DNA of 64,000 nucleotides, taken from contig JACADZ010000022.1 in assembly GCA_013389105.1 (NCBI GenBank), positions 124,001-188,000 on the forward strand, read 5' to 3'. The stretch is from Parvularculaceae bacterium. Lineage in GTDB: Bacteria > Pseudomonadota > Alphaproteobacteria > Caulobacterales > Parvularculaceae. Under the pieces are notes generated by a model. It was not told where the DNA came from. It was given only the letters and a program-made list of their open reading frames with translations, and searched no databases. Shown here piece after piece: positions 4,364 through 61,748 of the stretch. Made by a program: the position numbers and the translations under genes. The number at the start of each line of letters is the position of its first letter. The stretch's first letter is position 1.

Positions 4364-4869
4364 GGCGGAAAATCGGACCTGTCGCGACTTTCGCGATGGT
4401 GACGCAGCGCCCAGTGCACTGTCGGGAAGGCGATATCCGGCCACGGAATGTCGTCCCAGGCGAAGAGTCGGACCTCGAGGCTTTCGGGTCCGGGAGCGAT
4501 GATGTCGTCTCTCAACTCGGCGCGATAAATGATCTGCACCTGACCGATGCGGGACACGGAGTAAACGGCAAGCAGCCGATCGATCGAAATATGAGCCGCG
4601 GCCTCCTCCGCGGCTTCACGCACGGCCCCTTCCTCCGCAGTTTCCCCCAATTCGAGATAGCCCGCCGGCAACGTCCAGAAGCCCTTGCGCGGCTCGATGG
4701 CGCGCCGGCACAACAAGATGCGACCGGACCGCTCTACTACCGAACCGACGACAAGTTTGGGATTTCTGTAGTCGATGAAACCGCAATGAGCGCATACGGC
4801 GCGTTCGCGATCTTCGGCAGGCGGAATACGCATGTCGAAGGCCGGCTCAAGTGCGGGTTTGTCGGCCAC
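4336..4869 (-). CDS. Nudix hydrolase with CxxC N-terminus
   Basis: A Nudix pyrophosphohydrolase of 177 residues. The Nudix box reads GYLELGETAEEGAVREAAEE, matching Gx5Ex7REUxEE. Upstream lie one CxxC (CAHCG) and the NPKLVVGSV strand typical of the zinc-ribbon/ADP-ribose-type Nudix subgroup, though only one cysteine pair is present, so a full ribbon is doubtful. The substrate is unknown. I choose GTG 4869 because a strong AAGGAGG lies 7 bases upstream; a TTG at 4914 in the same frame has no such site. It is convergent with yciB and overlaps its end. Confidence 0.85.
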   Translation of the reverse strand: MADKPALEPAFDMRIPPAEDRERAVCAHCGFIDYRNPKLVVGSVVERSGRILLCRRAIEPRKGFWTLPAGYLELGETAEEGAVREAAEEAAAHISIDRLLAVYSVSRIGQVQIIYRAELRDDIIAPGPESLEVRLFAWDDIPWPDIAFPTVHWALRHHRESRDRSDFPPYSNPIEGL

Positions 4870-5115
4870 GATCTTGCCTCCTTCATCAGGTCGGACTGCG
4901 GAATATCCGTCCAAGGCGCTTTCGCGCCATCGGCTGAATTTATCGATAGACGGATCATCGGCAATCCTCTATGTAGCCGCTCCAGCGCGCCGCCGTCGCT
5001 ACGCGGCGCCAGCTTGGGAGACGGCCGAAAACCGGGTTGCGCGCTCTCCTAAAGCGTTCTCGGGAACGCCGCCGGCGGTTGAGCGCCGGGGCGAAACTAA
5101 ACGGAGATGCTCCAG

Positions 5116-40737: not shown

Positions 40738-41741
40738 AGCTGGGTGTCGTGGTCGGCGCGCTGGCGTTTCTCGGGTGCGCCGCAAGCTCGGCTCCCGCCG
40801 ACGTGGACGGCGCCGTCGAAGCGACGGAGGAGGCGCCGGCGCAGCCCACGCCGTCTGATCCCGACGCCGCCGACGCGGAGCTCGTCAGGAAGGCCGCCTA
40901 TGCGGAGGTCATGAAGGACGTTGAGGCGCGCACGCTGGCGTTCCCGGATTCCTCCGAGCACGTCCGATTGTCCGGCGGCTTCACCCAGGGCGGACTTCTA
41001 TTCGGCGAGACGACTCCCGGCGCTCGTGTGCGCCTCGACGGCGCCGACGTCATGGTCGGCGCCGACGGGCGATTTGTGATCGGTTTCGGCCGCGACAGCG
41101 CGCTATCGGCGCTTCTCCTCGTCAATTTGCCGGACGGCGCCGAAGAACGGATCGCCATCAAGATCGAGGACCGGGAGTTTCCGGTGCAGCGGATCGACGG
41201 TCTCGACCAGTCAAAGGTCTCGGGTTTCACCGAGGAGCAGCTGAAAAAGATCGCCGCCGACAACGAGAAGAAGAAGGCCGCACGCGTTGCGACCGACGCG
41301 ACCGCGCACTGGGCCGGCGGGTTTTCATGGCCCGCCAAGGGCCCCATCAGCGGCGTGTTCGGCTCCCAGCGCATTCTCAACGGCGAGCCGAAGACGCCTC
41401 ATTCGGGCCTCGACGTCGCTGCGCCTTAAGGAACGCCCGTCCTCGCCCCCGCCGACGGAATCGTGCGGCTCGCAGAACCTGACATGTATTTCGAGGGCGG
41501 ACTCGTCCTGCTGGATCATGGTCACTGGGTCGAAAGCGCGTTTCTCCACCTTTCGCGCCTTGATGTGACGCCGGGCCAGATCGTGAAGAAGGGAGAGCCT
41601 ATCGGCGCAGTGGGCGCAACCGGCCGCGCCACCGGACCTCATCTTCACTGGAGTCTCAAATGGACCGGCCGCCTGGTCGATCCGCAACTTCTGGTCAAGC
41701 CAGAGGAAAACCCCCAGCCGGGGCCAGGAGCGGGGCGGTAA
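40734..41741 (+). pseudogene. M23 (LytM-type) peptidase lipoprotein, interrupted by in-frame TAA
   Basis: The frame encodes a lipoprotein (KLGVVVGALAFLGC, lipobox FLGC), a beta-rich middle and an M23 metallopeptidase domain. The first zinc ligands are in PHSGLDVAAP; the next codon, at 41427-41429, is TAA, after which the same frame continues GTPVLAPADGIVRLAEP, then FLHLSRLD and GPHLHW with the remaining catalytic histidines. No frame change occurs, so one codon (probably Lys, Glu or Gln) has become a stop. The truncated 231-residue product would be inactive. Sequencing error or stop readthrough are alternatives. An internal ATG (41463) could only make a fragment. Confidence 0.78.
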
Positions 41742-41753
41742 GGACTTTTTTTT

Positions 41754-41772
41754 GCAGTTGACAATCATTCGC
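41754..41772 (+). promoter_or_regulatory. Fur-box-like operator before bfd
   Basis: GCAGTTGACAATCATTCGC matches the box before bfr at 15 of 19 positions and contains a TTGACA-like -35 sequence (41758-41763). A repressor bound here would block RNA polymerase, so the gene would be expressed when iron is low. Irr or RirA could be the protein instead. Confidence 0.55.
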
Positions 41773-41822
41773 ATCTGGGCGAAACATTCTCGCGTCAACT
41801 CGTCTGAGGCCGTCGTTCGCCC

Positions 41823-42014
41823 ATGTTTGTGTGCATCTGCAACGCGTTGCGGGACCGAGACCTTGCGGAAGCGGCCAAAACCGATACGCCGACCGTAGCT
41901 GAAGTTTTCCGCCGCTGCGGCAGCCGCCCTAAATGCGGTAAGTGCCTCCCAGACGTCGCGCAGATGATCGACGAAGCGCGCGGTCTCCAGCAGGTTTTTG
42001 CAGCCGCCGGGTAA
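41823..42014 (+). CDS. bfd: Bacterioferritin-associated ferredoxin (Bfd-like)
   Basis: A 63-residue [2Fe-2S] protein that reduces heme-bound iron in bacterioferritin so it can be released. The ligand pattern is complete: C4 and C6 (VCICN) then C38 and C41 (PKCGKC), 31 residues apart as in characterised Bfd. ATG 41823. It precedes bfr on the same strand, both under similar operators. Confidence 0.92.
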   Translation: MFVCICNALRDRDLAEAAKTDTPTVAEVFRRCGSRPKCGKCLPDVAQMIDEARGLQQVFAAAG

Positions 42015-42035
42015 GACCTGCCGCGAACTTCCCGC

Positions 42036-42054
42036 GCGAATGAAAATCATTCGC
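42036..42054 (+). promoter_or_regulatory. Palindromic Fur box before bfr
   Basis: GCGAATGAAAATCATTCGC is a perfect 8-bp inverted repeat with an AAA centre and contains TGAAAATCA, close to Fur-box cores (GATAATGATAATCATTATC). It lies 67 bases upstream of bfr. Confidence 0.65.
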
Positions 42055-42121
42055 CGCATTCGCGCTTTTTCGTCTGGAAAAGCTCTGCCAAAAGCGGCGC
42101 GAAACCGGTCTGGAGGAATGC

Positions 42122-42601
42122 GTGAAGGGCGATCCCAAAGTCATCGAATATCTCAACCGCGCGCTGAAGCTCGAACTAACGACCGTCAACCAGTATTTCC
42201 TTCATGCCCGCATGCTGCGGAGCTGGGGCTTTCCCAAGCTCGCTGACCGCGTCTACAAGGAATCCATCGATGAAATGAAGCATGCGGACAAACTCATTGA
42301 ACGCATCCTCATTCTCGAAGGCCTCCCCAACGTCCAGGACCTCGACAAGGTCTATATCGGCGAAAGCGTGAAGGAGACGCTCGAGTGCGATTTGCGCGCC
42401 GAGCGGCGCGCGCACCCGCTCTATCTCGAGGCCATCGCCTATTTCGAGAGCATCCGTGATTTCGTGAGCCGTGATATCCTCACCGGCATCCTTAAGAGCG
42501 AGGAAGAGCATATCGACTTCCTCGAAACCCAGCTCGAGCTCATCGCCAAGCTGGGCGAGGCCTTGTATATGCAAAGCCTCGTAGAGCCCAAAGGAGAGTG
42601 A
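42122..42601 (+). CDS. bfr: Bacterioferritin
   Basis: A 24-mer iron-storage protein with heme, 159 residues. Ferroxidase residues are all in place: E18, E51, H54, E94, E127 and H130; the heme-ligand methionine is M52 in DEMKHAD. The start is GTG 42122 (KGDPKVIEYLNRAL), five bases after GGAGGA. A nearby ATG (42119) is out of frame. It belongs with the upstream bfd gene for iron loading and release. Confidence 0.95.
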   Translation: MKGDPKVIEYLNRALKLELTTVNQYFLHARMLRSWGFPKLADRVYKESIDEMKHADKLIERILILEGLPNVQDLDKVYIGESVKETLECDLRAERRAHPLYLEAIAYFESIRDFVSRDILTGILKSEEEHIDFLETQLELIAKLGEALYMQSLVEPKGE

Positions 42602-42602
42602 C

Positions 42603-42944
42603 ATGTTGAAGGGTCTCGCCGGCGCCGCCGTTCTGCTGCTTGCCGCCTGCTCGTCGAACGGCGCCGGGGACGCGGATCGGGTCGGCATTCCGACGGGAGA
42701 GACGGGCGGCATGTGCGCCGGCGTCGCCGGCGTCCGGTGCAACAATGACTTTGACTACTGCGCCATGCCGGACGGGGAATGCCGCGGCATCGCCGACGCC
42801 GCCGGAACATGCGCCAAGAAGCCGGAAGCATGCACGCGCGATTACCGTCCGGTCTGCGGCTGCGACGGACGCACCTATTCCAACGCCTGCACGGCGAAGG
42901 CCGCCGGGACCAGCGTCGCCGCAGAGGGCCCCTGCGGGTCGTAA
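42603..42944 (+). CDS. Kazal-type serine-protease-inhibitor-like lipoprotein
   Basis: A 113-residue lipoprotein: signal LKGLAGAAVLLLAAC (lipobox LAAC), a first Cys-rich part (MCAGVAGVRCNNDFDYC) and a C-terminal Kazal domain, CTRDYRPVCGCDGRTYSN followed by the last Cys pair. The P1 position on the inhibitory loop is uncertain. Bacterial Kazal proteins are few and mostly unstudied; a role against host or predator proteases is plausible. It starts just after the bfr stop and is followed by an M16 peptidase. Confidence 0.87.
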   Translation: MLKGLAGAAVLLLAACSSNGAGDADRVGIPTGETGGMCAGVAGVRCNNDFDYCAMPDGECRGIADAAGTCAKKPEACTRDYRPVCGCDGRTYSNACTAKAAGTSVAAEGPCGS

Positions 42945-49828: not shown

Positions 49829-49905
49829 AGGTTGTCGGTTGCACCTCGCCGGTTGTAGGGACAGCCCGCAATGCGGCGCAACCAGCAGCCTGCCGCCGAC
49901 AACCT
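49829..49905. repeat. 10-bp inverted repeat in the divergent lipid A region
   Basis: AGGTTGTCGG (49829-49838) is inverted as CCGACAACCT (49896-49905), with 57 bases between. It flanks the intergenic region and an early in-frame ATG (49871) of the exporter. It may be an operator or an mRNA hairpin; chance cannot be excluded. Confidence 0.3.
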
Positions 49906-49927
49906 GCGCCCGCGGCCGCAACCTCGA

Positions 49928-51688
49928 ATGAGCGAAACTCCCGCCCCAACTCTGACGCTCGCCGGCCGGCTCTGGCGTGGTTATCTCCAGCGCTACGCCC
50001 CGCAGCTGCTCCTCGCCCTCGCGGCCATGGCGGTTTATGCGGCTTCGGCAAGCCTCATTCCCGCCGGCGTCGAATGGATCAACAAGGCGCTTTCGGGGCA
50101 GGGCGCCCCGATCCCCGGCGACGTGCTCGCCTGGGGGCCGGTCCTCGTCGTCGGTCTCGGACTCGTCAATGCGCTCTCCCAGTATCTGCAGGCCCGGCTC
50201 TCGGCCGCTGCTGCCCTCGCCGCGCTGCGCGACCTTCAAGATGAGATGTTCCGCAAGCTCCTCGTCGTCGACGACGCGCAGTTGCGCGCGCTCGGGCAAG
50301 GCCAGGCCATCGGCAGGCTGACCAACGACGCGACGGTGCTGCGCGAGACGCTGACCCGCGCGACGACCGCGGTCCGGGACGTTCTGACGTTTACCGGCCT
50401 GTGCGCCATGATGATCTGGTACGACTGGGCCCTTTTCGTGATTGTCGCCGCCGTCTATGCGGTCATCGGCTGGCCCGTCGCGCGCATCGGCAGATATCTG
50501 CGCAAGAGCTCGCGCGAGGCGCAGGCGCAGACCGGCGAGATCGCCTCGATCGCCGGCGAGGCGGTCGGCGGCGGCCGGATGATCCGGACCTACCGCCTCG
50601 AAGCCCAGGAGGGCGCGCGCGGCCGCGCCGCCTTTGACCGGCGGCTGAAAGTGCTGCAGCGCATGGCGCATCTTCGCGCGCTGAACGAGCCGTTCATTTT
50701 CTTTGTCGGCTCGGTCGCGCTGGCGATCGTGATCGCCGCCGTCGCGCTGCGCATCGAGGCCGGCGCGCTCGACGCGACGGAATTCATCGCCTTCATCGTC
50801 GCGCTTCTCCTCCTGTCGCAGCCGGCGCGCGGGCTTTCGACGCTGAACGCCGTCATGCAGGAAGGCTTCGGCGCTTTCGAGCGCATGCTCGAAGTCATCG
50901 ACCTGAAGCCGCGCATCGCCGATCGCGCGGACGCCGCGCCGCTCGCGCTGAAAGGCGGCGCTGTTTCTTTTCGCGACGTGCGCTTTTCCTATGGCGACGG
51001 CGTCGCAGCGCTCGACGGATTTTCGCTGGAGGTTCCCGCCGGCGCGACGGTCGCCCTCGTCGGGGAGTCCGGGGCGGGCAAGTCGACCGTGTTCGCGCTG
51101 CTGCCGCGCCTTTACGAGCCGCAATCGGGCGCGATCCTGATCGACGGCGCCGACATCGCCGGCGTCACGCTCGCCTCGTTGCGCGCGGCGATCGCGGTCG
51201 TCAGCCAGGAGACAATTCTCTTCAACGACACGGTCGCGGCCAATATCGGCTTCGGCAAGCCGGGCGCGAGCGACGCCGAGATCGTCCAAGCGGCGACCGC
51301 GGCGGCCGCCGACGATTTCATCCGCGCCCTCCCAAACGGCTACCGGACGTTCGTCGGCGAGGGCGGCCAGAATCTCTCCGGCGGCCAGCGCCAGCGTATC
51401 GCCATCGCCCGCGCGTTCCTGAAAGAGGCGCCGATCCTGCTGCTGGACGAGGCGACGTCCGCGCTCGACGCGGAGTCCGAGTCGCTGGTGCAGGCCGCGC
51501 TGAAGCGCCTCGCCAAGGGGCGCACCACGCTCGTCATCGCGCACCGCCTCTCGACCGTGCGCGAGGCGGATTTGATTGCGGTTGTGGACAAGGGGCGCGT
51601 CGTGGAGACGGGGACACACGCGGCGTTGACGTCGAAATCCGGCGCGTATGCGCGTGTGGTGGAGATGCAGCTACAGCGGACGGCCTAG
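49928..51688 (+). CDS. MsbA-like ABC exporter (lipid A / multidrug type)
   Basis: A half-transporter of 586 residues with a six-helix membrane domain and an ABC domain: Walker A GESGAGKST, Q-loop near VSQETILFND, signature LSGGQRQR, Walker B ILLLDEATSALD and H-loop VIAHRLSTVR. Its location opposite the lipid A genes suggests it flips lipid A-core. I start at ATG 49928 (SETPAPT), nearest to the first helix; ATG 49871 in the same frame adds a Pro/Arg leader. Confidence 0.9.
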   Translation: MSETPAPTLTLAGRLWRGYLQRYAPQLLLALAAMAVYAASASLIPAGVEWINKALSGQGAPIPGDVLAWGPVLVVGLGLVNALSQYLQARLSAAAALAALRDLQDEMFRKLLVVDDAQLRALGQGQAIGRLTNDATVLRETLTRATTAVRDVLTFTGLCAMMIWYDWALFVIVAAVYAVIGWPVARIGRYLRKSSREAQAQTGEIASIAGEAVGGGRMIRTYRLEAQEGARGRAAFDRRLKVLQRMAHLRALNEPFIFFVGSVALAIVIAAVALRIEAGALDATEFIAFIVALLLLSQPARGLSTLNAVMQEGFGAFERMLEVIDLKPRIADRADAAPLALKGGAVSFRDVRFSYGDGVAALDGFSLEVPAGATVALVGESGAGKSTVFALLPRLYEPQSGAILIDGADIAGVTLASLRAAIAVVSQETILFNDTVAANIGFGKPGASDAEIVQAATAAAADDFIRALPNGYRTFVGEGGQNLSGGQRQRIAIARAFLKEAPILLLDEATSALDAESESLVQAALKRLAKGRTTLVIAHRLSTVREADLIAVVDKGRVVETGTHAALTSKSGAYARVVEMQLQRTA

Positions 51689-51737
51689 CGCGTTACACGA
51701 TTACTGTTATCAAAAGCTTTGATGTGCAATAAAACAG

Positions 51738-51743
51738 TTGACA
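51738..51743 (+). promoter_or_regulatory. Possible -35 box of the secreted-protein pair
   Basis: TTGACA precedes an AT-rich stretch with a run of ten T's before the TTG-start gene at 51800. No convincing -10 box is visible at 17-base spacing. The 110-base gap after the exporter holds nothing else I recognise. Confidence 0.25.
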
Positions 51744-51799
51744 TTCTTTTTTTTTGGTAGCGTGAAATTGCCACAGAAATTGGAGTCGATATCCAGAGA

Positions 51800-52279
51800 T
51801 TGTTGCGATATTTTACGACCGTCGCGCTGGTTTCCGCAACGGTTGCAGCCCAGCCGGCGTCAGCCCAAAGCGATCCATGTGAAGGTGTGCCCGGCGACTG
51901 TGTAGGCGTCACCGGCGAGCGAACCAACTGGGGTCTTGATTTCTGGATATTTATCGTTGGCCGTGGCGGAGGCGGCGGCAGCGGGATTGGCCAAGGCGCG
52001 GGGGGAGGCATTTACGTTCCTGCCGATTCGCCCTTTGATCCAATGCCTCCGCCGGCCGGGTATATCAGCATTTCGGCCGTTCCGCCATTTTCGCCGCCGA
52101 CCGGCACTGTAGCCGTCGTTGTCAACGTGCGGCATTGCGTTGACCAAAACGCCGACGGCGTGTCGGATGAGACGATTGAAGGCGGGTTCACGGTTCGCGG
52201 TCGCGACCTGGACTACAACCAGCGACCGGATGTCTGGGACCAGCTTGAGCAGCAAGGGCGCGTTTGGCAGTGCCCATGA
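51800..52279 (+). CDS. Secreted Gly/Pro-rich protein with Ca-binding-like loops
   Basis: A 159-residue exported protein: signal LRYFTTVALVSATVAAQPASA, then a cysteine pair (PCEGVPGDC), a glycine-rich run (RGGGGGSGIGQGAGGG), a Pro-rich stretch and two acidic loops, DQNADGVSDE (115-124) and DLDYNQRPDVWD (136-147) resembling EF-hand or thrombospondin-3 repeats. The last 50 residues hold two further cysteines. TTG 51800 or 51803 starts it; no ATG or GTG precedes it before an in-frame TAG. Its lower G+C and TTG start match the aspartic-protease gene 40 bases downstream. Unknown family. Confidence 0.6.
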   Translation: MLRYFTTVALVSATVAAQPASAQSDPCEGVPGDCVGVTGERTNWGLDFWIFIVGRGGGGGSGIGQGAGGGIYVPADSPFDPMPPPAGYISISAVPPFSPPTGTVAVVVNVRHCVDQNADGVSDETIEGGFTVRGRDLDYNQRPDVWDQLEQQGRVWQCP

Positions 52280-52319
52280 CCGCCCTCTAAGTGCTCATGA
52301 CCGCAAGGAGGAAGCAGCG

Positions 52320-53663
52320 TTGCAGCGAGTGTCAAAATTTGTTTTTTTGTGGGCGCTGCTTTCCTCTTGCCTCGTGCGGACATTTGTATCGACCGTATCG
52401 GCGTCTGAAGATGCGAAATTCTGCGATCGCTATCGAGAGGTTTCAATAGGCGCGATTCTGGAAGGCTCGGACCCTTTTGCGCTTAGGTGCGCGCTGGCAG
52501 GTAAACTTGGCGACCGAGCGTTAACTGCCGACCAGGCTCTCGCCGCTGAAACGCTGCTGAATCTCTTTGAGGTCAATAATGGCGCGGGCATAGTCGGCGC
52601 ACTTCGCTATCTGGAGGGACGCGCCGAAAGCTCGGATACACTATGCAACAAGATTTCCCGGGAACTGCGCCGGGCATATCTCCTTGAGGGCAATTACGCC
52701 GCTTACGTCCGCCTGCGCGCCGCTTCGTGTTCTGAAATGGCGCAAGCGGTTCAGGGCATCCGTTCGGGCCCAAAGCAATCGACCAAGGCCTCTCGCATTG
52801 GCGTCCAAGCCCGCCTGAAACTCAAAACGCTCCCAACCGGACATCGCTTCGTGGAAGCTACCGCGGCTGATACTGCGATTGAGATGATCATCGACACTGG
52901 CAGTGAAGTGTCGCTCGTTCCGCGCTCACTGGCGCAAGAGCTTGGTTTTCAGCGCCTTGGCGCGGAGCAAGGCGTCGCGGTCAGTCTATCAGGTAATTTT
53001 TCCGGGTACTTTGCACTGTCTCCTGTTCTTCAGCTGGGCGAAATGACTGTGGAACACTTGATCTTCTTTGTCATTGACGATGATCCGAAGACGCGCAAAT
53101 TTTTTGGCGATCGGCCGGTTCTCGGTCTTAACGCCCTGATCGCGGCGGGAGGCGCGACTTTCCTGGGAAGGGAAGATGCGTTGATTCTCGGGCGGCCTGC
53201 GAAATCGCAACGCTGCTGGCGCAATCGCGATGAGATGTTCATAATGAATGGCCGTCCCTATCTGACGGCGCACTTCGAAACCGGCCCCGCCTTGGCGTTT
53301 TTCGATACCGGCATCAATTATAACGCGGGTTTTGCGCCGCCCGTCGGCTTCTATGCTGATGAGTTGCGTGTCATAAGCCATTCTGGTTTCTATGCGCCGA
53401 ATGACAATGCTCTCATCCAGGGTGGGACATTTACAGGGGTGCGGCGCGCCCGCTTTTCGCTTGCGGAACAAGAGCTGACCATTCGGGACTTGCCGATATT
53501 TCGGCTCAAGGCTGGCGGCAAGCTCGGTGCCACGTTGTGGCTGGGTGCGCCGCTGGTCGAGCGACTAGACGTTTTGATGCTCGATTTTGAAAGCATGACT
53601 TTTTCGGTCGAGAAGAAGCAGAGCGAGATTTCGGCCGCTTGCCTGCAATTTGCAGCCGACTGA
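52320..53663 (+). CDS. Secreted protein with two retropepsin-like aspartic protease lobes
   Basis: A 447-residue exported protein. The leader has an N-terminal hydrophobic run (FVFLWALLSSC) and a Cys-containing 150-residue region. Then come two aspartic-protease-like units: IIDTGSEVSLVP (DTG at 192-194) with a hydrophobic-Gly strand at VLGLNALI (267-), and AFFDTGINYNAG (DTG at 329-331) with LWLGAPLVERLDVLMLDF. Retropepsins normally dimerise with one DTG per chain; two in a chain could form one pepsin-like site. TTG 52320 is the start, with AAGGAGGA 8 bases upstream. Moderately lower G+C than the flanks. Active status is unproven. Confidence 0.8.
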   Translation: MQRVSKFVFLWALLSSCLVRTFVSTVSASEDAKFCDRYREVSIGAILEGSDPFALRCALAGKLGDRALTADQALAAETLLNLFEVNNGAGIVGALRYLEGRAESSDTLCNKISRELRRAYLLEGNYAAYVRLRAASCSEMAQAVQGIRSGPKQSTKASRIGVQARLKLKTLPTGHRFVEATAADTAIEMIIDTGSEVSLVPRSLAQELGFQRLGAEQGVAVSLSGNFSGYFALSPVLQLGEMTVEHLIFFVIDDDPKTRKFFGDRPVLGLNALIAAGGATFLGREDALILGRPAKSQRCWRNRDEMFIMNGRPYLTAHFETGPALAFFDTGINYNAGFAPPVGFYADELRVISHSGFYAPNDNALIQGGTFTGVRRARFSLAEQELTIRDLPIFRLKAGGKLGATLWLGAPLVERLDVLMLDFESMTFSVEKKQSEISAACLQFAAD

Positions 53664-53741
53664 AACGATCTCGTTGTTGATTGGAGTACAGAATACATGA
53701 AGCGCTGTGATCGCTTCATGCCAGCCGGAGCGTTTCAGACT

Positions 53742-54458
53742 TCATTCCCGCCGCAGAATCCGTTCCGTCAGTAGATTGCCCCACCACGATCCCATAAATT
53801 CGCGCTTCAGGGCGACGGGGTCGTAGGCGGGGCTCTCCGCCCACGCCATGAAGGCGTCGACATCGGCGAGCGACACGCCAGCGGTGCGGGCATGTTCGAG
53901 GTAGCGCTCGAGCGCATAGTCGATGACGCCGGTCTTGCCCTGCCGCACATGGCCGTAGCGGAATGACAGCTGCTGGCGCATCGCCTCATCGAGCGCAACG
54001 CCTTCTTCGAAAAAGAGGTAGAGGGTTGCGGCGATGCCGACGCGGTCCGCGCCGGACTTGCAGTGCATCAGGGCCGGATACTCGATCTCGCCGAACAGGG
54101 CGCGCAGGCGCTTCAAGAACTCCTTGGGCGGCGCCTCGCGCGAGAAAGCCCGCAAGGGAATGTGGCGCACGCGGGCCTTCGCGCAGGCCTCCTCTTCAAG
54201 GAAGAGAAAGCCGCTGGGCTTGTCGCCGCGCAGGTTGACGATCGTTCTGACGCCGCGCGCCGCCCAGCGCGCGATCTCCGCCGGCGAGGGCTGGTGCGAA
54301 CGCCAGAGCTTGCCGGGCGCGACCTCATGGACGTTGCGGTGGAACAGCCGGATCAGTCCGTGATCGGCGAACATGAGCTCGCGCACCGCGCGGCGGCGGC
54401 CGGCTTCGGTCGCGAAGTCCTCGCGCGTAAGGGGCTTGCCCTCAGTGATCGTCGCCAT
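53742..54458 (-). CDS. Protein tyrosine phosphatase-like protein
   Basis: A 238-residue phosphatase of the dual-specificity/DSP-PTP type. The CX5R loop is HCKSGADRVG, and the general-acid region lies in the preceding EAPPKEF-type stretch; NLRGDKPSG is typical of bacterial DSP-like proteins. ATG 54458 overlaps the end of DUF4170 by 17 bases, so both are co-translated. It may act on phosphotyrosine or on a phosphoinositide/sugar. The frame to 54581 has no coding character. Confidence 0.85.
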   Translation of the reverse strand: MATITEGKPLTREDFATEAGRRRAVRELMFADHGLIRLFHRNVHEVAPGKLWRSHQPSPAEIARWAARGVRTIVNLRGDKPSGFLFLEEEACAKARVRHIPLRAFSREAPPKEFLKRLRALFGEIEYPALMHCKSGADRVGIAATLYLFFEEGVALDEAMRQQLSFRYGHVRQGKTGVIDYALERYLEHARTAGVSLADVDAFMAWAESPAYDPVALKREFMGSWWGNLLTERILRRE

Positions 54459-54729
54459 CGGGATCAAGCAGCCGATGTAGGTGCACGATGAAATAGCGCA
54501 TATGCGCATTGTCGATCGTCGCCTGCGCCTTCGCGCGCCAGGCGCGTTCGGCCTCCGCATAGTTCGGATATAGGCCGACAATGTCCACCGCGGAGAGGTC
54601 TCGGAATTCGGTTCCGTCGAGATCCTTGAGTTCTCCGCCCAGAACGAGATGCAGGAGCTGTTTTGCCGCCGGGGCCGGCTTGGCGGTTTTTGTTTTCGAC
54701 TTGGCGGTTGATTTTGCTGCCTTGGCCAT
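54442..54729 (-). CDS. DUF4170 family protein
   Basis: A 95-residue alphaproteobacterial protein with a Lys/Ala-rich N-terminal tail and the conserved core HLVLGGELKDLDG, VDIVGLYPNYAEAERAWRA and RYFIVHLHRLLDP. No function is known. It overlaps the phosphatase gene and lies 16 bases after pmbA, in the same minus-strand run. Confidence 0.85.
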   Translation of the reverse strand: MAKAAKSTAKSKTKTAKPAPAAKQLLHLVLGGELKDLDGTEFRDLSAVDIVGLYPNYAEAERAWRAKAQATIDNAHMRYFIVHLHRLLDPDGDDH

Positions 54730-54745
54730 GAGCGCTCCGGGTGGG

Positions 54746-56089
54746 TCAGTCGCCGGCGATGGTCATCTCGCCGACGAGAAGCGACGGCGCGTTGACGGCG
54801 CCCGTGAATTCAAGATCGTCGGCGGGAACGAGCGACTTGAACATGTCGAGGATATTGCCTGCGACCGTGATCTCGCTGACGGCGTGCGCGATGGCGCCGT
54901 TCTCGAACCAGAAGCCGGCGCAGCCGACGGAGTAGTCGCCGGTGTTGGAGTTGACCTGAGGCCCGAACATGTCGGTGACGAGGAGGCCCTTGCCGGCCTG
55001 CGCCATCAGCGCCGCCCGCGAAACCCGTCCGTTTTCGAGGTAGAGATTCGTCGGGCCCGACCCTGGCGGTCCGCCGACGCCGCGCGTTGCGCGCCCATTG
55101 GTCGCGAGCTTGAGCTGGCGCGCCTGCGAAGAGTTCATGATCCAGTCGGCGAGCACGCCGTCGTCGATGAGCTTTATCACGCCGGCCGCGACGCCCTCGC
55201 CGTCGAAGGGGCGCGATCCATGGCCGCGCTTCATATGCGGATCGTCGATGACGTTGACGCCGCGCGGAAAGACGGCGGCGCCCTTCTTGTCTTTGAGGAA
55301 TGAAACGCCGCGCGCGATGGCCGCGCCGTTCGCGGCGCCGGCTAACGTGGAAAGCAGGGAGCCGGAGAGACGTCGGTCGTAAATGACCGGCGCGGTCTGG
55401 CTCTTGATCCGTCTCGGGGACAACCGCTCGACCGCCCGAGCCCCCGCGCGCGCGCCGATCGCCTCAGGCTCGCGCAGGTCGGCGACGTATCTCTTCGAGT
55501 CCCAATCGTAATCGCGCTCCATGCCGTTGGCGTCCTCGGCGATCACGGTGACGGAGAGCGAGTGGTGGGATCCGCGAGAGACGCCGAAGAACCCGCTCGA
55601 CGTCGCGAACCACTTCGCGCCCTCGCCATAGCTGGCGCCGGCGCTGTCGGAGTTGACGACGCCCGTGACGGCGAGCGCCGCCTCTTCGCAGGCGGCCGCG
55701 CGCTGTTTCAGCATCGAAGTGTCGGGCTCTGCAAAGTCGCCGGCTTCAAGATCGGGAAAAGGCGGCTTCGCGAGTCGATCGACGGGCGCGAGGCCGCAAT
55801 AAGGGTCCTCAGGCGCCGTCTTCGCCATGGCCGCGCAGCGCTCGACTAGCTCGGCGAGGGCGGGCTTGGAGAAATCAGTCGTGGAAACCGACGCCTGTCG
55901 CTTGCCCGTCAGAATGCGCAAACCGAGGTCCCGGCCTTCGGAGCGCTCGACGTCCTCAAGCTTGCCGAGCCGCCAGGTGACGCCGGACGAGACCGAACGG
56001 TAGATGACGGCGTCGGCTGCATCGGCGCCGGCGCGCCGGGCGGATGCGATCAGGTGGTCAAGAATGATCTGGGCGTCGCTGTCGTTCAT
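54746..56089 (-). CDS. pmbA: TldE/PmbA-type metallopeptidase subunit
   Basis: A 447-residue TldD/PmbA-family protein. The TldD/PmbA pair forms a protease that matures peptides such as microcin B17 and clears others. N-terminal AGADAADAVIYRSVSSGVTW, YGEGAKWFATSSGFFG and C-terminal GCAGFWFENGAIAHAVSEITVAG are typical of PmbA. PmbA lacks the zinc HExxxH of TldD, as here. tldD is not in the window. ATG 56089. Confidence 0.92.
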   Translation of the reverse strand: MNDSDAQIILDHLIASARRAGADAADAVIYRSVSSGVTWRLGKLEDVERSEGRDLGLRILTGKRQASVSTTDFSKPALAELVERCAAMAKTAPEDPYCGLAPVDRLAKPPFPDLEAGDFAEPDTSMLKQRAAACEEAALAVTGVVNSDSAGASYGEGAKWFATSSGFFGVSRGSHHSLSVTVIAEDANGMERDYDWDSKRYVADLREPEAIGARAGARAVERLSPRRIKSQTAPVIYDRRLSGSLLSTLAGAANGAAIARGVSFLKDKKGAAVFPRGVNVIDDPHMKRGHGSRPFDGEGVAAGVIKLIDDGVLADWIMNSSQARQLKLATNGRATRGVGGPPGSGPTNLYLENGRVSRAALMAQAGKGLLVTDMFGPQVNSNTGDYSVGCAGFWFENGAIAHAVSEITVAGNILDMFKSLVPADDLEFTGAVNAPSLLVGEMTIAGD

Positions 56090-57591: not shown

Positions 57592-58134
57592 TCAGAACAG
57601 ATCGATCGCCTTGCCCGGATTGGATTTGTCGTAGGCCTCCACGGCGTTGATGAAGCCCTGGACGTAGTGAGACGGCGCGGAGGCCGACATCGAGCCGTCC
57701 TGGCCTTTTAGCGTCACTTTGAGGCCGCTGGTCTTGGCGGCAGCGATGGAATTGGCGTCGAGCTTTACGGCGACCATCTCATCGACGCGGCAGTTTTTGG
57801 CGTAGGCGCGGCACGATGTTCCGGCGCGGCCCATGGGGACCGCATGAAGCGTCGCGCCGGTGCTATCGGTCGCCTCCTTGACGCCGGCAACGTCGGACGC
57901 AAGTTCGAGCTTGTAGGACCAAGCGCCGTCGAGGCTGCGGGTTCCCGACAGGAGCCAGGTTTTGCCATTGGCTGTCATCGTCGGCCCTTTAGCCGTCACG
58001 ACGCCGGACATTTCTTCCTTGAACTTGGTCTGAGATTCGACTTGACCTGCCGTAGTCAAGGCCGGCGACCCCGGTTGGACCGAGGCGCACGCCGCCAAAG
58101 CCAGCGTTGCAAGGCTGGCGACCAGAATTCTCAT
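57592..58134 (-). CDS. Lipoprotein, hypothetical
   Basis: A 180-residue lipoprotein with signal RILVASLATLALAAC (lipobox LAAC). The mature part is rich in Lys, Ala, Ser and Thr, with two more cysteines (SCRAYAKNC) that could form a disulphide. I do not recognise a family. ATG 58134 has GAGGAAG just upstream; the frame continues back without coding character. Followed by a strong hairpin terminator. Confidence 0.7.
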   Translation of the reverse strand: MRILVASLATLALAACASVQPGSPALTTAGQVESQTKFKEEMSGVVTAKGPTMTANGKTWLLSGTRSLDGAWSYKLELASDVAGVKEATDSTGATLHAVPMGRAGTSCRAYAKNCRVDEMVAVKLDANSIAAAKTSGLKVTLKGQDGSMSASAPSHYVQGFINAVEAYDKSNPGKAIDLF

Positions 58135-58448
58135 GACTTCCTCACCCCTAAAATCCCGGACCACTATGGCCCTCGGGACGCCTTTTTAACCATGGGTGCG
58201 GCCAGGGGAGCAACAATAGGCTTGCACGTGGCTGCTCGGGAATTGGCGGGGGGCGCGGCATGGCGGCAACACGGTGACAATTACGCAACAAGCTCACGGG
58301 TTTGACATCTTCACCAAGTGGGTTTGTTGACTCCGGAAGGGCTTCGTAAAATTGTAATAAGTAGACAGGCGGATTTTGGGGCAGGCGAGGGCGACAGACC
58401 CTCCGCGTCAGTTTTCGCCGGGCAAGCAGGGAACAGAGGGCTCATATC
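58135..58448. other. Divergent intergenic region before the TonB receptor
   Basis: The 314-base gap holds TTAACCAT (58186-58193), a CtrA half-site-like octamer, and two TTGAC-type -35 candidates for the receptor: TTGACA at 58302-58307, and TTGACT at 58327-58332 with TGTAAT further on (58353-58358, spacing 20). None is a full promoter match. No Fur box was found. Confidence 0.3.
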
Positions 58449-61400
58449 ATGAGAAAGACCAAGCGCGCGTTCGCGTTGCGTGCATTTCTGGCGGCGAGCG
58501 TGTCGACCGTCGCCATGACGTCGTTTGCGGTCGCGCAAGACCCGGCGGACGATGAGGAAGAGGCGGCAAAGGACGAAATCGTCGTCACAGGTTCTCGTAT
58601 CGGCCGCGGCGCGCTCGACGCGCCCCAGCCCCTGCAGCAGTTCACGGGAGAGGACATCACGCTGTCGGGCGAACCGAACATCGTCGACTACCTCGCCGAC
58701 GTCCCGGCCCTGCAAGGCTCCACTGTTCCGGAAGACACCACGGGCGCCGGTCTCGGCGACGGCGGCCTGTCGCTCCTCAACCTGCGCCAGCTCGGCTCGG
58801 CCCGCACCCTCGTTCTGGTCGACGGCCGCCGGCATGTCGGGGCCAACCCGGGCACATCCTCGGTCGACGTCGACTCGATCCCGCGGCTTCTCATTGAGAG
58901 CGTCGATGTCGTCACCGGCGCGAACTCCGCCGTCTACGGCGCGGACGCCGTGTCCGGCGTCGTCAACTTCGTTCTCAAGGACGACTTTGAAGGGCTGACG
59001 GTCGATGCGGCCGGCGCGTCGATCGCTCAAGGCTTCGAGGGCTACAACTATCGCGCCTCGCTGCTCGCCGGCAAAAATTTGTTCGACGACCGGATGAACA
59101 TCTATGTCGCCGCGGAATATGAAAACAGCGACGAAATCAAGCAGGGCCAGCTCGACCTCGACATCGCGGATTCGCGGCTAGTCAACGTCGATCTCGACTT
59201 CACCGGTCAGATCAACGACGGAGTCCTCGACAACGTGGCCGTCTTCGGCAATTTGCGCACGATCTCGCGTCCGACGGGCGGCATCTTCACCCTCGGCCAC
59301 GACATCCGGCAGAACGGCATCCAGAACAACGTCAACGTGCCGTTCGTCTCGTGCTCTACGACGAGCGTGACCTCCGGCAACTGCTTCATTATCGACCCGC
59401 CCTTCTCGTCGCTGTTCGGTCCGGGCGGCACGGTCATTACGCCGAACTACGGCACCTTCCGCTCGCCGACCGGTTCGCTGCGAACCCTGGTCCAGAACGG
59501 CTCGGGCGATCCGTTCTCGCTGTTCCAGGCATCCCAGCTTCCGGAAGCCGAAGCCATGCGCTTCCAGGCGGGCATGAAATTTGAGCTGACGAACAACATC
59601 GAGTTCTTCGCCGAAGGCAAATATGTCGATGAAGACGTGCTGGACAACTTCCAGCCGGCCTTCTTCGACGTTCAGTTCGAAACCACCGGCGTTGCGCCGA
59701 CGTCGCTGACGGCGCCGAACCAAGATACGTTCGCCTTCCCGCAGCCCGGCGGGTTCCTGACGTCGCTCAACCAGTTCCGTCTGCGGATCTTCAACACGCC
59801 CGGCAACGTCAACCCGCTGATTCCCGCCTCGATCGTCTCGGCGATCGCCGCGAACACGCGGACGACCTACGCGTCGAACACCTGCTCGCCCGACCCCGTC
59901 ACCGGTCTTTGCACCAACCCGCTGTTCTACACGCCGACGGGCTCTGTCGCGTTCCCGGTCGGCCAGATCCGCGTATTCACGACCGATTACGGCGATCGCC
60001 CGCAGGACCTTAACCGCACCACCTATCGTGCGGTCGGCGGCTTCCGCGGCTCGATGGATCAGTTCGGCTTCATCGACAACATGAACTGGGAAGTCGGCTA
60101 CACCTACGGCTCGGTCAGCGATGAGAACCGCGAATTCGGAACGATCGACGTGTTCCGGTTCGCCAACTCGCTCGACGTCGTGCCGAACACAGCCGCGACC
60201 CCGAGCCTCGGGCCGGTCGGCACGCCGGTTTGCCGCGTCAAGGTGCTGGCGGCCCTCGGCCTTTTCGGCTTCAGCCCGACCGATCCATATGTGGCGGAAT
60301 GTATTCCCGGCAGCCTCTTCGGCGCGGGCGGCCTCACCCCAACGGCTCCCTACGTCCTGACGGATCTCGGCCGCACCAACAAGAACGCCCAGCATGACGT
60401 TCTGGCGTTCATGTCCGGCGACCTGTTCGATCTCTGGGGCGCCGGCCCCGTGCAGTTCTCGCTCGGCGGCGAATGGCGTCGTGAATCGACGCAAGGGACG
60501 GTCGACTATGCGCCGACCGATCCGCGCACGCTGTTCGCCAATACCGGCCTCGACTTCCCGAAGACCTCGTTCGGCGTGAAGGAAGGCTTCTTCGAAGCCC
60601 GGATCCCGCTTCTTGCCGACAGCTTCATCGCGCAGAGCCTCGAAGTCGGCGGCGCGGTCCGCGTCTCGGATTATTCCTCGATCGGAACCACGACGACGTG
60701 GAACACCAACGCAGTGTGGGAATGGAACGACCAGGTGACGCTGCGCGGCACCTACGGCGTCGCCGTTCGCGCGCCGAACCTGTCGGAACTGTTCTCGCCG
60801 CCGGGCCAGACCTTCCTGCAGATCACCGACCCCTGCTCGCAGCCGGTCATTCTCGGGACGGTCGATGCGACCATCCGGAACAACCGCATCGCCAACTGCG
60901 CGGCGCAGGGCATTCCGAACACCTATGTAGACCCGAACCCGGGCTCGTCGAACGCCGGACAGCAGGGCGGCAACTCCCTCCTGAAGGCTGAAAAGTCCCG
61001 GAGCTGGACGGCGAGCCTGATCTACCAGCCGGAATGGCTCGACCGCTTCTCGATGGTCGTCGATTTCTACGGGATCGAGATCACTGACGCGATCGCCAAC
61101 CCGTCGATCCAGGCCCTCGTCAACGGCTGCTATGACGGCACCAGTCTCAACGCCAACTTCTGCAGCCTGTTCACGCGCGATCCTGGGACCTTCGAGATCA
61201 ACTTCTTCAACCTCTCGCCGGTCAACTTCCAGGCCCTGAAGGCGCGCGGCATCGACTACGCCTTCAAGTTCGGCTTCGACCTCGCCGACGACTGGGGTCA
61301 GGGCGGCTTGATCCCCGGCTCGATCGACTTCAGCCTGCGCGGCTCTTATGTCATGCACCGCGTCGACTTCGTGAACGTGTCCGATCCGAACGATCAGACC

Positions 61401-61748
61401 GAACTCGACGGCACGGTCAATTTCCCCAAGAACCGGTTCCTCGTCACTACGGCGTGGAATTACGGCAAGTTCCGCCTTGCGCACGACCTCGACTACTTCA
61501 CGAGCCAGGACTTCGAGGAGGCCGAATCCTACATCGGCAACGAAGACTCCGGCTTGCAAGTCTACCGCAAGACGGGTTCGTGGACCCAGCACGACCTCAC
61601 GGCCAGCTACGAGTTCAACGACAACTTCTCGTTCCGCGCGGGCGTCGTGAACCTGTTCGACAACGAGCCGCCGCTGCGCGTGCTCTACAACGACCTCTGG
61701 GATCTCTGGGGCCGCCGCTACTTCATCGGCGCGACCGCGAACTTCTGA
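58449..61748 (+). CDS. TonB-dependent outer-membrane receptor
   Basis: A 1,099-residue receptor importing large substrates across the outer membrane using proton-motive force via TonB. It has a signal peptide ([20 protein letters not shown] with cleavage after FAVAQ), a TonB-box-like DEIVVTGSR, a plug domain (about residues 55-200: [48 protein letters not shown]) and a beta-barrel ending in the terminal Phe of IGATANF. The barrel is long. It belongs to the oligotroph-type receptors without adjacent transporters, so the substrate is unclear. Confidence 0.93.

Follow-up and report, generated by a model that had tools for sequence, protein, structure and literature searches.

Two plus-strand genes lie between an MsbA-like exporter gene and a phosphatase/DUF4170 unit in the genome of a Parvularculaceae bacterium, in DNA that looks unlike its surroundings. 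We asked how this pair came to sit there, and whether its two products work together. The window, meaning the whole stretch of DNA that was analysed, comprises 64,000 nucleotides (G000:C18:124001-188000) of the source genome G000, an assembly of 3.03 Mb in 234 contigs. Positions refer to the window unless a contig or locus is named.

A two-gene unit with its own leader

A first-pass annotation had placed two genes with TTG starts at this site, and both were found as open frames on the same strand, 40 nt apart (Table 1). The TTG of gene 1 is the earliest ATG, GTG or TTG past the upstream in-frame stop. The longest frame of gene 2 opens at 52119 rather than at its TTG; that TTG has the AGGAGG close upstream and a signal-peptide-like stretch after it. 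Both products had been called exported, and signal-peptide-like stretches, judged by eye, agree with that prediction.

Table 1. Features between the msbA-like gene and the phosphatase gene
Feature	Positions in the window	Strand	Description
A+T-rich leader	51689-51799	+	promoter/operator candidate
Gene 1	51800-52279	+	159-aa putative exported protein (export read by eye); TTG start; VTG motif, Gly-rich stretch and two Asp-rich calcium-loop-like motifs
Gene 2	52320-53663	+	447-aa putative exported (read by eye) retropepsin-type aspartic protease; two DTG motifs (D192, D329); TTG start after AGGAGG
Insert tail to phosphatase stop	53664-53741		inverted repeat ATGAAGCG...CGCTTCAT at 53698-53720

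The leader holds a near-palindrome, ATCAAAAGCTTTGAT, at 51709-51723, just upstream of a TTGACA at 51738-51743, and this near-palindrome is a possible operator of the inserted pair. Nine consecutive T at 51747-51755 correspond to the upstream T-run of the first-pass annotation; the window has three such runs of at least eight. A promoter scan found no full sigma-70-type site on the plus strand of the leader. Genes 1 and 2 would form a small accessory operon and be transcribed together.

Base composition and codon use set the pair apart from its neighbours, as had been suspected from its G+C. In 500-base steps, G+C drops from about 66-71% in the exporter gene to 54-60% across the pair, against 65-70% on its flanks, and climbs again at the phosphatase. 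Across the window the mean is 0.649 (sd 0.031, 635 steps of 500 bases); 29 of the 635 steps fall below 0.60, and 20 of these 29 start within 51501-53501. GC3 is 0.63 in gene 1 and 0.60 in gene 2, whereas 58 ORFs drawn from a mechanical non-overlapping set, each with GC3 above GC2 by more than 0.05, average 0.77 (sd 0.055). In a hand-picked set of 44 window genes, which excludes antisense-looking or doubtful ORFs, including low-G+C ORFs at 41325-42745, genes 1 and 2 have the two lowest scores (z -4.1 and -4.4) when compared with the synonymous codon usage of the remaining 42.

Three other places in the window stand out. The gene at 4396-5052, which has no Pfam match, comes next after the pair in atypical codon usage among the 44 genes (z -3.3). 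A second low-G+C stretch (0.56-0.60) at 41701-42700 contains two minus-strand ORFs without a Pfam match. At 57592-58164, a small minus-strand gene, also without a Pfam match, encodes an exported-looking protein, and its 5' part lies in a slightly low-G+C stretch.

Probable insertion at a convergent junction

The block kdtA-acyltransferase-msbA (the first two named by eye) faces phosphatase-DUF4170-pmbA convergently, an arrangement conserved across the genus. The junction between the two halves was readable in six of eight same-genus relatives; msbA was not found in the G002 and G004 stretches, and the G004 contig stops at the phosphatase. None of the six readable relatives carries the gene pair at this junction. 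The stop codons of msbA and the phosphatase are 2 nt apart in G003, 2 nt apart in G008 and, read directly from the sequence, 3 nt apart in G006, and in the window the junction (51688-53742) spans 2,053 nt and holds the pair. Since the pair is absent from six relatives, three of which have the two stops this close together, insertion is the simplest explanation. One insertion is the most parsimonious account of the junction data, better than several clean losses, and we conclude that the pair is very probably an inserted accessory unit. The operon would have entered the junction in this lineage, either imported or drawn from genes shared within the genus.

The same junction seems to accept different genes. 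In G001 it holds 239 noncoding nt that include an inverted repeat and no convincing gene, in G005 738 nt with short ORFs, and in G007 1,628 nt with a minus-strand gene that looks by eye like an oxidoreductase. With different inserts across related genomes (L057-L063), it is a possible landing site, and it illustrates how envelope genes peculiar to one lineage come to lie between housekeeping genes that converge.

A predicted two-lobed retropepsin-type protease

The gene 2 product matches Pfam Asp_protease_2 (PF13650; E 2.6e-9, 38.1 bits against a cutoff of 24.3; 37.4 for a homologue in G004, described below) and falls below the cutoff for the NCBIfam clan AA protease TIGR02281 (18.5 against 57.95). 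An alignment of 28 rows set it beside 25 homologues encoded at loci within the order; three of 28 loci (L017, L018 and L037) were missed by the search pattern, of which L017 and L018 were added for the tree, and L019, L033 and L036 entered the tree with the protease part alone. The two aspartic-protease motifs reported by the first-pass annotation are borne out by this alignment: D192-T-G and D329-T-G line up with the lobe 1 and lobe 2 motifs of other two-lobed retropepsins, and V267-L-G and W407-L-G with the second conserved element of each lobe. Thus, both catalytic halves lie in one chain. An N-terminal helical region is predicted, with helices at 43-148 in an otherwise poor model.

From these features the gene 2 product is probably an exported, active retropepsin-type aspartic protease with two lobes in a single chain. 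It belongs to a known kind of enzyme, and a profile search at E 0.001 found relatives in this broad sense in 93 of the 398 genomes searched in the order. Our literature search found no paper on a Parvularcula aspartic protease. Among solved structures nothing meaningful was found for either protein, the one match to gene 2 being marginal (E 0.85, titled 'Exported protein'). Structure models were poor, with a pLDDT of 38.7 for gene 2 (AlphaFold2 on a two-row alignment) and 33.7 for the other model.

A small, putatively exported protein of no known family

Gene 1 encodes a new protein, outside any known family: it has no fit in Pfam, NCBIfam or PHROGs, and its one NCBIfam match reaches 16 bits against a cutoff of 168. 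Its homologue in G004 shares the VTGE, FW and Gly-rich GGGSG elements and, towards the C terminus, D115, D119, G120, D123, D136, D138, N140, P143, D144 and W146. The calcium-binding-like loops of the first-pass annotation survive in part. The motifs D115xN117xD119-G120xxD123 and D136xD138xN140xxxD144 are visible by eye, with a spacing of Asp residues that we take to resemble calcium loops, and these Asp residues are invariant in the single G004 homologue. No Pfam calcium family (EF-hand, dockerin or TSP3) matched the mature part or the G004 protein at E values up to 5, and a literature search found no paper joining thrombospondin type 3 to a bacterial secreted calcium aspartic protease. We suggest that the Asp-rich loops may bind calcium.

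The pair in a second genome

Relatives of gene 1 are rare. As a query it matched two of 61 genomes (its own and G004), and a two-row profile found the same number among 62 genomes of the family and 398 of the order. Across the class, the profile returned the own copy and weak matches in 4 of 385 genomes (E 0.002-0.009), which we rejected: one is the start of a TonB receptor (E 0.003), and the others look unrelated. A scan of named contigs confirmed at least one locus, L044, among 52 pattern stretches, a lower bound because both scan patterns were strict.

L044 (G004:C134, Parvularcula sp. UBA11161, 3,572 bases), from another species of the genus, carries a second pair, with the small gene followed by the protease in the same orientation. 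The gene 1 homologue there (L044:1405-1824, plus strand) encodes 139 aa from a GTG start chosen by eye. Order and adjacency are kept despite low identity to the window copies (38% for the small protein, 26% for the protease); pmbA, DUF4170 and phosphatase of G004 are 61-70% identical to those of the window. The second pair sits behind a gamma-glutamyltransferase-like gene (named by eye), a site unlike that in the window. It too is poor in G+C (0.52 and 0.56), with a GC3 of 0.53 and 0.63 against 0.82 for two host genes. Scattered homologues of gene 1 away from the protease were not found: the small gene lies directly upstream of the protease in two of two known cases, a thin count as two pairs are known in total. 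The protease, for its part, also occurs without the small gene: it stands alone at G000:C201 and at 17 other loci (L016-L031 and L084), and none of these 17 has a small VTG-type gene upstream in ORF lists read by eye.

In a tree of 31 rows, the window, G004 and G000:C201 proteases form one clade (support 97/95), within which long branches make the order unsure; the best protease match outside G000 and G004 among the 398 genomes of the order has an E value of 1e-25. The C201 copy (G000:C201:99311-100584; L002:1166-2439) lies in the source genome itself, between proS and a CoA-ligase-like gene that adjoin within 1.5 kb in none of seven relatives examined. It has a broken frame, no small gene upstream, a G+C of 0.58 and a GC3 of 0.63 against 0.83-0.89. 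The lobe 2 motif is altered in both sister copies (DTA in G004, DGG in C201), and the G004 protease has a frame change near its end. These disruptions may reflect decaying activity or faulty assemblies, and of the three copies, that in the window alone combines both motifs with an intact frame.

The clade also bears on a different history, in which these are old genus-level genes under relaxed selection that descended vertically and were lost in most species, their low G+C being a sign of weak selection, not import. Three subfamily members grouped within the genus, all G+C-poor in their hosts, and the lack of an outside donor among the genomes searched fit such descent. However, it calls for repeated clean losses that leave junctions of 2-3 nt, the pair occupies different positions in the two genomes, and the grouping involves long branches that meet inside the clade. 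We judge this history unlikely.

Likely transfer and the search for a donor

Transfer of the pair between genomes is likely. The first-pass annotation had proposed a transferred two-gene cassette; the foreign composition, the insertion and the occurrence of the same pair elsewhere support that proposal in part, and its vehicle and donor were not found. The window holds no tRNA and no Rfam match, no long repeat flanks the pair within 51600-53800, and none of six proteins scanned at 49871-56089 is a mobile-element protein. Within that scope we saw no sign of an integron cassette, an IS or a transposon, such as an integrase or transposase, terminal repeats or a tRNA site. Searches by tblastn gave no match for gene 2 among plasmid and phage records or for gene 1 among plasmid records, and neither gene has a relative in viral contigs; PHROGs gave no match.

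A donor of the protease was also sought with profiles across the class and phylum. At E 1e-12 just one genome among 289 matched, the source itself; at E 1e-8 two among 309 did, the source and G974, whose protease is without the small partner gene. Known anti-phage defence proteins (PADLOC) were also set aside, with one weak match for gene 2 (E 0.035) and none for gene 1.

A protease and its candidate partner

We propose that the protease would act outside the cytoplasm, with the gene 1 product as its cognate substrate or regulator. That the small protein works with the protease in this compartment is the most likely reading of its role, and a protease-substrate relationship is plausible, yet a true functional partnership of the two genes is a tentative claim that we hold at somewhat less than even chances. 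The best explanation overall is an inserted accessory operon encoding a two-lobed exported protease and a cognate small exported partner, which we regard as evenly poised.

Alternatively, the two genes might be functionally unrelated and have travelled or drifted together. In that case the protease would act on envelope proteins in general, and the small protein would have a separate role. The protease is indeed widespread without the small gene and has a lone copy in the same genome. Against this, both known copies of the small gene, diverged and at different sites, sit immediately upstream of a member of this protease subfamily, and we consider chance companionship rather unlikely.

PerP of Caulobacter, a periplasmic aspartic protease of an alphaproteobacterium, has a specific envelope substrate and cleaves PodJ. 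To our knowledge, few bacterial retropepsin-like proteases have known substrates. Here a protease gene has stayed beside a single small gene for a putatively exported protein, despite deep divergence and different genome sites, and that neighbour is a directly testable candidate substrate or regulator. The pair is moderately interesting as a test case for finding substrates, and is not a new class of system.

The closest architecture is that of the two-lobed retropepsins of the order (L016, L019, L020-L031 and L084), which have two aligned motifs and an N-terminal region of similar length. Unlike them, gene 2 sits on a long branch, with about 22% identity at best, and has a small partner upstream. 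RloA of Pseudomonas (PMC12239564) and APRc of Rickettsia (PMC4140852) are reported to be exported or membrane retropepsin-like proteases, single-lobed and working as dimers, with links to envelope stress or surface-protein processing; RloA has the operon partners RloB and RloC. The gene 2 product shares with them a D[TS]G motif, a hydrophobic-hydrophobic-Gly element and predicted export, and itself matches a Pfam retropepsin-type domain. It differs in carrying two motifs in one chain, unlike the single lobe per chain of the homodimeric RloA/APRc type. Their reported roles fit the general setting of the pair, yet neither its partner gene nor the two lobes of its protease. Shewasin-type pepsin homologues are bilobal single-chain aspartic proteases in bacteria (PMC4814920). 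The gene 2 product resembles them in being predicted bilobal and single-chain; it is not recognised as such by sequence, and Pfam places it in retropepsin-type families.

A TonB-box lead

A further possibility is that the small protein is a secreted factor that engages TonB through a TonB box after its signal peptide, is released or matured by the protease, and serves in nutrient capture or acts like a bacteriocin. Just past the signal peptide, receptors in this genus have DEIIVTG and DEIVVTG, a motif that we presume to be the TonB box, and the G004 small protein has DEILVTG at the same place. Two of six non-self matches of an N-terminal profile are such receptors, with weak E values (0.16 and 0.33), as is the rejected class-wide match at E 0.003. 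The window itself contains a TonB-dependent receptor at 58449-61748 whose mature start is DEIVVTGSR. TonB-dependent colicins also have a TonB box (PMC11658791).

Gene 1 of the window, however, has just DCVGVTGER, a weaker version, and the E values are weak. By composition, a signal peptide followed by VTG draws matches to receptors, which are numerous; among 44 window proteins, two have VTG at residues 20-60, and the receptor is one of these. Since the motif in gene 1 is the weaker one, the TonB box remains a weak lead, and a TonB-engaging factor is highly improbable in our view.

In its fullest form, which we rate a long shot, the pair would make up a mobile envelope system of two genes. The two-lobed retropepsin would process the small secreted protein, with its TonB-box-like leader and calcium loops, and proteolysis and calcium together would gate a TonB-dependent process. 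Such a gated process, if true, would serve nutrient capture or competition between strains.
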